This document shows positions 42,213 through 43,826 of a stretch of 64,000 nt of DNA, one piece after another. Under the pieces are notes generated by a model that saw only the letters and a list, made by a program, of their open reading frames with translations, was not told the origin of the DNA and did no database searches. A program made the translations under genes and the position numbers. Position 1 is the stretch's first letter. Each line of letters begins with the position of its first letter. The stretch is from Aquiluna borgnonia (GTDB taxonomy: Bacteria; Actinomycetota; Actinomycetes; Actinomycetales; Microbacteriaceae): assembly GCF_013283855.1 (NCBI RefSeq), contig NZ_CP054056.1, positions 1,116,001 through 1,180,000 on the forward strand. Reading direction: 5' to 3'.

Positions 42213-42419
42213 ACCGGCTCCTGTCCCTAGCTAGCAGGTTAGCAAGTCGAACTGGCCAAAATGATGTGATGGAAACGTTATAAGTTTGGGAATTACCTAC
42301 CCCTGCAGCTGTTAAAACCCTGTGAGTCGCGCAAAGTAGCCGATTCGCTGGGCCCACAAGCCCGACGAGTGGACTTCTGACTAACAAGATCAAAGTCATC
42401 GAAAGGACTTTCGAAAAAG

Positions 42420-43193
42420 ATGAATTCAGTAATCAGTGAGGGTGGATACAGCCTCGTATTTAACATGCTGTCGATGGGAATCGCAGCCATGTTGTTCACC
42501 ACCATTTTCCTATTCATGGCCAAGGACCGCGTCCTGCCTCGCTACCGCATGGCGGTAATGATCTCGGCAACCGTTACCGGTATCGCCGCGTATCACTACT
42601 TCCGTATGTTCGAGAGCTTCGAGCACGCTTACGGTCCAGACGCCATTGAAGGCTATGTCTACAACGTGGGTTACCGCTACGTGGACTGGTTCCTAACCGT
42701 GCCACTGCTGTTGGTTGAGACCGTTGCTGTTCTAGGTCTAGCCCGCGCAATGCAGACCTCCCTGCTAGTTCGCCTCGTGCCAGCAGCAGCGCTAATGATC
42801 GGCCTGGGCTACCCAGGTGACGCTCAGCTAGACATCATGGGCATTCCACCATCTGTCTGGGGTCTACTCTCCACCATTCCTTTCCTATACATCCTGTATG
42901 TACTGTTCGTAGAGCTAGGCAAGAGCCTGGAGCGTCAGTCCGCAGCTGTACAGCGCAAGGTGAAGGAACTACGCCTACTATTGCTCGCTACCTGGGGTGT
43001 CTACCCAATCGCCTTCATCGCAAACATGAACGCGGTAGGTTTCGAGGAGTCCAGCTTCGTTCTGCGTGAGACCGGTTACACCATTGCCGACATCTTGGCT
43101 AAGTGTCTATTCGGCCTCGTTATCTTCACCATCGCTCGCATCAAGAGCATGGAAGACGACGCAGAGTTCGCAAAGCACGAAGTTCGCGACTAG
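42420..43193 (+). CDS. actR: Actinorhodopsin, light-driven proton pump
   Basis: A 257-residue, seven-helix microbial rhodopsin. Helix C reads YRYVDWFLTVPLLLVE, giving Asp89 (acceptor), Thr93 and Glu100 (donor), the DTE set of outward proton pumps. Leu97 is at the proteorhodopsin-105 tuning site, so green absorption is expected. His59 matches the His that pairs with the acceptor, and Lys228 (ADILAKCLF) binds retinal. A glycine in VWGLLSTIPF (Gly148) could form the fenestration for a carotenoid antenna. GAAAGGAC precedes the ATG. No carotenoid or retinal genes lie in the window. The 207 bases upstream show no convincing promoter. Confidence 0.97.
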   Translation: MNSVISEGGYSLVFNMLSMGIAAMLFTTIFLFMAKDRVLPRYRMAVMISATVTGIAAYHYFRMFESFEHAYGPDAIEGYVYNVGYRYVDWFLTVPLLLVETVAVLGLARAMQTSLLVRLVPAAALMIGLGYPGDAQLDIMGIPPSVWGLLSTIPFLYILYVLFVELGKSLERQSAAVQRKVKELRLLLLATWGVYPIAFIANMNAVGFEESSFVLRETGYTIADILAKCLFGLVIFTIARIKSMEDDAEFAKHEVRD

Positions 43194-43208
43194 GACGGAG
43201 AGAGCCTG

Positions 43209-43316
43209 ATGAAGAAGATTGATTGGGAGCTCGTGCAGTCCATTGTGCTTGTCGGCATGCTTCCAGCAATGCTGATCATCGGAGCACTTTTCCCTAGTTT
43301 GTTCGCAACTTACTAG
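43209..43316 (+). CDS. 35-residue single-helix membrane peptide behind actinorhodopsin
   Basis: ATG at 43209, 15 bases after the actR stop, opens a 35-codon frame ending at TAG 43314-43316. GGAG lies 8-11 bases ahead of the start (ACGGAGAGAGCCTG). The product begins MKKIDWELVQ and continues with one strongly hydrophobic helix (about residues 11-33, containing a Pro and two Gly) before ending in TY. The actR terminator lies 13 bases after the stop, so the gene would share the rhodopsin transcript. I do not recognise a family. A partner or assembly factor of the pump is conceivable, but this is inference. Confidence 0.65.
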   Translation: MKKIDWELVQSIVLVGMLPAMLIIGALFPSLFATY

Positions 43317-43329
43317 CAAAGCTAAAAAG

Positions 43330-43363
43330 AAACCGGGTCGAGAAATCGACCCGGTTTTTCTTT
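43330..43363. terminator. Bidirectional intrinsic terminator
   Basis: A 12-bp perfect stem (AAACCGGGTCGA with TCGACCCGGTTT, 43330-43357) closes a GAAA loop and is followed by TTCTTT. The minus strand has TTTCTTTTT after the stem. It therefore can end both the actR transcript and the convergent DUF3817 gene, whose stop codon overlaps the T-run. Confidence 0.9.
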
Positions 43364-43826
43364 AATCAAACCACTCGGTGGGTGGTCCAAGAAACAGCAG
43401 AAACGCAAAGATGCCGGGGATTAGAACCACCAGAATCACCAGTAGCACAAGCGGCCGGGCGATGAACCAGCGAAACACGGTGTCGATAAAGCTGGCATCC
43501 CTGAGGTCTGAACCTCGCTCGGTTCGCCAAGGTCCTTCGAGGGCGGCTTGACGCTCGAGACTGCGCTCAAATGGAATCGTTGCAAAGGGAATGATTGCGA
43601 GGAAAACCGCCAAGAGTAACTTTCCAAATCCAAAGCGCTGGTTCATTCCCACTAGCACAGCGGTGACCGCATAACCCAAAAACACCGCGCCGTGGATTGA
43701 GCCCGCCACCGTGACGATGTGGGGAATTGGATCCCCGAACGCCCTGATCACAAGGGCTGTGATCAGAAGCGTCCAGGTGATTGCCTCACTTTTTGCGAAA
43801 AGAGTGAATAATTTTTTGGGGGTCAT
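43362..43826 (-). CDS. DUF3817-family integral membrane protein
   Basis: A 154-residue membrane protein with about four hydrophobic helices. GSIHGAVFLGYA and AIIPFATIPFERSLERQAA are typical of DUF3817, a common actinobacterial family of unknown function. Its stop codon overlaps the T-run of the shared terminator with actR. It follows the DUF-free 15-base gap after nothing on its own strand except the aminotransferase further downstream (43842 ends before it begins), so it is the last gene of that minus-strand set. Confidence 0.85.
   Translation of the reverse strand: MTPKKLFTLFAKSEAITWTLLITALVIRAFGDPIPHIVTVAGSIHGAVFLGYAVTAVLVGMNQRFGFGKLLLAVFLAIIPFATIPFERSLERQAALEGPWRTERGSDLRDASFIDTVFRWFIARPLVLLVILVVLIPGIFAFLLFLGPPTEWFD

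Follow-up and report, generated by a model that had tools for sequence, protein, structure and literature searches.

Small single-helix partners of large membrane proteins include AcrZ of AcrB, CydX of cytochrome bd, KdpF of KdpABC and, in yeast, Pmp1 of the Pma1 proton pump; single-helix proteins also belong to light-driven complexes, as PufX and the small photosystem subunits do. Among microbial rhodopsins, HtrI and HtrII serve as transducers of sensory rhodopsins, and to our knowledge the bacterial rhodopsin pumps are regarded as one-protein machines. ASRT is a further partner protein linked to a microbial rhodopsin [according to the available part of PMC2739507]. The peptide described here, encoded directly behind an actinorhodopsin gene (actR), resembles AcrZ, CydX, KdpF and Pmp1 in size (30-50 residues), in its one helix and in the proposed service to a large membrane protein; unlike the role proposed here, none of those four is known to serve a rhodopsin. 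PufX and the small photosystem subunits likewise shape a light-driven complex with a single helix, but that complex is of the chlorophyll type, and no relation to the peptide was found. HtrI, HtrII and ASRT are also partners of microbial rhodopsins, but they act in signalling, are larger or soluble, and belong to sensory rhodopsins, whereas actinorhodopsin (ActR) is a pump. No sequence relation to the AcrZ, CydX or KdpF type was found: at E 10 the peptide profile matched nothing in PDB, and its matches in Pfam and NCBIfam were weak (best E 0.018 and 0.021), none of them below E 0.018. A small partner of a bacterial rhodopsin pump was not found in the open-access literature by title or start of abstract, among the matches listed, and the available parts of two papers on Aquiluna rhodopsins (PMC8113403, PMC12422013) mention no small neighbour of actR. 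Membrane complexes with small helical partners are well known; such a partner of a rhodopsin pump would be a new member of that kind.

The window, that is the whole stretch of 64,000 nt analysed, is taken from Aquiluna borgnonia, whose genome is a single contig of 1,362,706 bases. Its actR gene (42420-43193, plus strand; 257 aa; TAG stop; Pfam PF01036 Bac_rhodopsin, E 2.4e-35) encodes a protein 88% identical to ActR of two relatives, G012 and G017. The 35-residue peptide is encoded at 43209-43316 on the plus strand, with its ATG 15 nt past the actR stop and a GGAG at 43197-43200, 8 nt ahead of the ATG, as likely ribosome-binding site; the product, MKKIDWELVQSIVLVGMLPAMLIIGALFPSLFATY, is present once in the genome (single-sequence search). 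Residues 8-35 are free of charge and the N end is rich in lysine; the peptide fits one membrane helix, and the positive-inside rule would place the N end in the cytoplasm and the helix in the inner membrane. A hairpin with T tracts on either side (43330-43357, both strands) starts 13 nt past the peptide stop and sits between convergent genes, as likely terminator for actR and the peptide gene on the plus strand and for a DUF3817 gene on the minus strand (43362-43826; Pfam PF12823, E 1.1e-17). On the plus strand it comprises 14 pairs (-22.8 kcal/mol) in our own hairpin scan; the consensus terminator scan reported it on the minus strand only, and the plus-strand pairing can extend into the T tract. 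An earlier, sequence-only reading had proposed this start with its GGAG, a 35-codon frame with one transmembrane helix, and a strong terminator at this distance; the coordinates were confirmed, and the helix and the terminator agree with the charge-free stretch behind the lysines and with the hairpin. A G-rich site (GGAG or similar) precedes the peptide in 12 of 15 relatives; the three nearest (L002-L004) have a weaker and farther AAGG or AAAG instead.

ActR was matched in 19 of 22 genomes of the same genus, and a peptide homologue of 35-38 residues lies directly 3' of actR in 16 of the 18 Aquiluna actR loci with 3' flank. One contig (L021/L127) ends within actR; it was excluded from the 18 and scored as peptide-less on the ActR tree. 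Three genomes of 50-70% completeness (G003, G013, G021) gave neither an actR match nor the peptide. All 16 peptide-bearing genomes also hold actR, no second strong copy of the peptide was found in them, and a seventeenth case beside actR (L092) came from an ActR-profile scan of named genomes. Eleven positions are invariant among the 16 aligned homologues (K3, I4, D5, W6, Q10, L14, P19, G25, A26, P29, Y35; the row of L017 begins one residue late, and a further alignment, A3, is without the seven host rows L003, L004, L006, L012, L014, L015 and L016). Departures from the majority base number 110, 52 and 220 at codon positions 1, 2 and 3 (33 aligned codons); pairwise dN/dS ranges from 0 to 0.40, mostly 0.05-0.3, in pairs with unsaturated synonymous sites, and mean pN over mean pS is 0.30 over all 120 pairs. 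The frame at 43209-43316 is a genuine gene under purifying selection. The sequence-only reading had named dN/dS of aligned copies as a check; the synonymous bias and the conserved frame leave its claim of a coding frame unrefuted. Short open frames are common here (77 of at least 25 aa overlap 5.5 kb), which would favour a chance frame in the 3' end region of actR; conservation of frame and stop in 16 genomes, together with the bias over codon positions, rules this out and leaves it a negligible probability.

In 4 of 16, namely the window and the three relatives closest to it (L002-L004), the hairpin follows the peptide gene, with none between that gene and actR. In 11 of the 16 the scan places a strong hairpin, its tail rich in T, between the two genes; in a twelfth, L007, an intervening hairpin with a weak T tract was seen by eye. 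From hairpin to recorded peptide start there are 18-48 nt across the 11 species, and merely 18-22 nt in L005, L006, L010 and L017, which leaves little room for a promoter of the peptide's own. Where the hairpin intervenes, read-through would be the simplest supply of peptide, at less than the amount of ActR. In the window the layout suggests that actR and the peptide gene share one transcript. The earlier argument from terminator position to a shared transcript thus holds for the window and L002-L004, and is limited to them because the other 12 of 16 have the intervening hairpin.

The usual order in Aquiluna is F7, F5 (PsuG-like), F4 (a protein of ~155 residues), actR, peptide, nitroreductase (F3) and P450 (F2); the labels PsuG, hrpA, DeoR and P-type ATPase were assigned by eye. 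Synteny was compared at 21 loci. The peptide is present in 17 and lies directly behind actR in 17 of 17, at a separation of 15-96 nt, in three downstream contexts: the next gene is the nitroreductase in 11, a P-type-ATPase-like gene in 2 (KACHI24, G010) and the DUF3817 gene in 4 (the window subclade; the nitroreductase of G009 is masked by the overlap filter in this comparison and visible in a separate listing). The window subclade has actR and peptide between an hrpA-like or DeoR-like gene and the DUF3817 gene; at the old site in G000 (the window's genome), G012 and G018, F4 and the nitroreductase stand head to tail, 14 nt apart, without actR or peptide, and G017 (84% complete) gave no match for F4 or the nitroreductase. 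Since the usual site is cleanly empty and the pair is together elsewhere, actR and the peptide gene moved as a unit. This joint relocation is to be counted with caution as one event, neighbours 15-96 nt apart being seldom split by chance. G031, G362 and G079 have no such nitroreductase, and either site may be the older. The ~155-residue protein (no Pfam match), nitroreductase and P450 stand around actR in L083 (3387-6854), in the same order in other Aquiluna, and remain together where actR sits elsewhere.

This arrangement bears on whether the peptide belongs with the nitroreductase and P450, in redox or pigment chemistry, and not with actR. The nitroreductase is the next gene in 11 of 17, and in the loci read it starts ~10 nt past the peptide stop, behind the hairpin that follows actR; yet the window subclade keeps nitroreductase and P450 at the old site with the peptide beside actR, and G020 retains the nitroreductase behind actR without the peptide. 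The relocation largely rules such a pairing out, and we consider it very improbable.

A candidate control element lies upstream of actR. GTTACCAAAACGTTA[CT] stands 141-168 nt ahead of the actR ATG in relatives; its best match upstream of the actR ATG in the window, GTGATGGAAACGTTAT (42266-42281, plus strand), has 4 mismatches. Among 11 upstream regions (the window, L080-L083, L085-L087, L091, L093, L095) it is exact in 5, has 1 mismatch in 3, and has 2, 3 and 4 mismatches in one each. It is exact in all three relatives at the new site; in G012 and G018 (exact) and in G000 (4 mismatches) it sits there with actR and the peptide gene. We regard it as a candidate operator or promoter part.

Outside the genus the peptide was not found beside actR in the lineages examined. 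The ActR-profile scan of named genomes covered the best 80 of at least 565 relatives found; 12 of these 80 loci carry the peptide (11 belong to loci already counted, plus L092), and in the other 68 the flanking sequence, up to 4 kb of it, gave no match. The peptide as a general feature of actinorhodopsin loci is thereby rejected. Loci of Rhodoluna, Aurantimicrobium, Nanopelagicales and Mycolicibacterium are among those without the peptide; in the 67 listed, a hairpin (seen by eye) typically comes straight after actR, and no small frame of a similar kind is present. Inspection downstream covered 67 of the 68 (L127 ends inside actR; L108 and L149 reach only 10 and 59 nt past the stop), and only L103 and L143 have a hydrophobic frame (22-70 residues) whose start falls within 220 nt, neither frame resembling the peptide. 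A family sample of 398 genomes gave 8 strong peptide hits (E 1.6e-20 or better), all in the window's genus, and 20 weaker hits (E 1.5e-4 to 0.1), 18 of them inside frames of at least 167 residues. A class sample of 394 genomes, the same for both profiles, gave ActR at E 1e-60 or better in 64, the window's (G000) included; 34 of the 64 belong to a single family with genomes of 1.2-1.9 Mb, presumably acI-type Nanopelagicaceae. For the peptide profile, a threshold of E 0.01 leaves matches only in G000 and, within a frame of 293 residues, in G813, so the window's own peptide is the only small-frame match. Two Aquiluna genomes, G001 (99% complete) and G020 (85% complete), have actR and lack the actR-linked peptide. 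The search for homologues downstream of actR proposed in the sequence-only reading came out in part as expected: the peptide is conserved in Aquiluna, and was not found beside actR of Rhodoluna or of the other lineages examined.

On an ActR tree of 29 rows (L092 not among them), peptide presence takes 5 changes, against 9.9 with shuffled labels (0 of 500 as low); the starred branches force only 1 change. The 98/97 branch separates ActR of G001 and six other peptide-less rows from 22 rows containing all 16 peptide-bearing ones. The six peptide-less rows among these 22 are G020, the cut-off L021, and L088, L089, L096 and L103 from other genomes; absence in G020 looks like a loss (branch support 83/76). 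In G001 (L011/L090), ActR lies across a well-supported branch from other Aquiluna, with nitroreductase and P450 still downstream, which suggests replacement of the rhodopsin gene. Eleven ActR positions separate peptide-bearing rows from the rest (17 vs 15 rows); these are confounded by descent and were set aside.

Homologues also occur in viruses, which the sequence-only reading had not foreseen. Eight IMG/VR contigs encode four different homologues of the peptide between them, e.g. MIKYLWKKIDWTVVQVVILVGMLPVMLVIGALFYQLFSAKYR; three of these share 57-66% identity with the window peptide by alignment and 59-69% by tblastn (L191 unscored). Ten proteins encoded nearby were scanned, and four of them match phage families: an endolysin, a carbamoyltransferase, a 2OG-Fe oxygenase and a protein of unknown function with 55% identity to one from Streptomyces phage Evy. 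Seven of the contigs gave no rhodopsin (a search without positive control; possibly fragments), nor did the eighth, of 11.2 kb (possibly a fragment), in a search that detected three rhodopsin loci as controls. The virus stretches have 37-43% G+C, below the 53.8% of KACHI24 (PMC9583784). In L161 (2876-2983), a second small hydrophobic frame, MDALMRELFGSAWAYYVAFAILGIWFAIERWGKRK, stands just ahead of the virus homologue. A search of known phages turned up 8 records, all at E 5-10 and attributed to chance, and two further searches gave none; the low-complexity filter of BLAST may hide such peptides. PHROG phrog_14464 ('membrane protein', 59 positions) weakly matches 8 of 13 rows over nearly the whole peptide (best E 1.3e-4); with a cutoff of E 0.1 its model finds matches in 8 of 14 control genomes as well and is unspecific.

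Two diverged relatives were seen in cellular genomes. One, in G020 (L067, 1486-1587), is phage-like, has 33 residues and is flanked by hydrophobic frames of 123 and 465 residues, the latter convergent. The other, in G362 (L039; 35-108, 1191-1232, 1350-1466), has 38 residues and lies beside a duplicated tRNA-Lys 3' end that looks like an attachment site; it is not beside actR within 2.9 kb of sequence, and G362 shares its genus, probably Rhodoluna, with G031.

The main rival to an ActR partner follows from these copies. The peptide may be phage-related: a small membrane protein with an independent function, e.g. membrane change in infection or phage exclusion, that was captured behind actR for the promoter this provides and has no contact with ActR. 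The IMG/VR homologues with their phage-family neighbours and no detected rhodopsin are as expected for this, as are the diverged copies away from actR in G020 and beside the att-like tRNA-Lys in G362. Set against them are the position of all 17 strong host copies behind actR, the purifying selection and the clustering on the ActR tree (5 changes vs 9.9), and phages may equally have acquired the gene from hosts. We regard this reading as possible, if rather unlikely.

The reading we prefer, at a probability of about 0.5 for a partnership of some kind, is that the peptide is an accessory or regulatory single-helix partner of ActR. A basic N end, a central proline and the invariant G-A make it plausible, from sequence features, that the helix packs against another membrane protein, and the constant linkage to actR points to ActR as that partner. 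Partnership is favoured by adjacency in 16 of 18 loci, synonymous bias, differing downstream genes, the joint relocation, and G001 without peptide across the 98/97 branch; against it stand G020, L088, L089, L096, L103 and most other ActR lineages, all without the peptide, and the virus contigs without rhodopsin. A helical face of conservation was not significant (p 0.16 with host rows, 0.32 once phage rows are added; two identical rows and L092 omitted). Both the peptide and helix C of ActR contain DW, a resemblance that led the alignment astray.

It is also conceivable that the target of the peptide is the membrane or the respiratory chain at large, and that its coupling to light is through expression only, as a small stress protein timed by the actR promoter. 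Such coupling requires no contact, and small membrane stress proteins of this kind are common, but the tie of the peptide to one ActR group is left unexplained; we hold this to be improbable.

As a partner of ActR, the proline-containing helix would dock on the ActR monomer or oligomer and would tune how ActR assembles, how stable it is, how it binds pigment, or how active it is as light or proton-motive force changes. Most Aquiluna examined would make the peptide by terminator read-through, at a lower amount than ActR; in the window subclade, with the hairpin after the peptide gene, every actR message would carry it. ActR of Candidatus Aquiluna sp. IMCC13023, when produced in E. coli with retinal that is either added or made alongside it, absorbs light, goes through its photocycle and pumps protons, and in native cells ActR occurs with carotenoid [both according to the available part of PMC8113403]. 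Because this ActR pumps in E. coli, apparently without the peptide, as far as that part tells, the peptide is probably not essential; presuming that IMCC13023 has it, it is probably not a required subunit of the pump. As native ActR occurs with carotenoid, pigment handling, assembly and regulation are still possible roles.

A more far-reaching version would make the peptide the first small accessory subunit dedicated to a proton-pumping microbial rhodopsin; its dose would be set by read-through or by where the terminator lies, and actinophage-like environmental viruses would use their own copy to act on the host pump in infection; cyanophages with photosystem proteins offer a parallel for viruses acting on a light-driven pump of the host. 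We consider this version unlikely as a whole. Among cultured relatives, Aquiluna sp. KACHI24 is an isolate (PMC9583784), and the related Rhodoluna lacicola reportedly undergoes natural transformation (PMC11577799). If the selected and linked helix peptide is indeed a partner, at least one widespread group would tune its rhodopsin pump with a partner, and cultured Aquiluna would provide a testbed; if the virus copies share its target, rhodopsin phototrophy would prove to be under viral influence as well.
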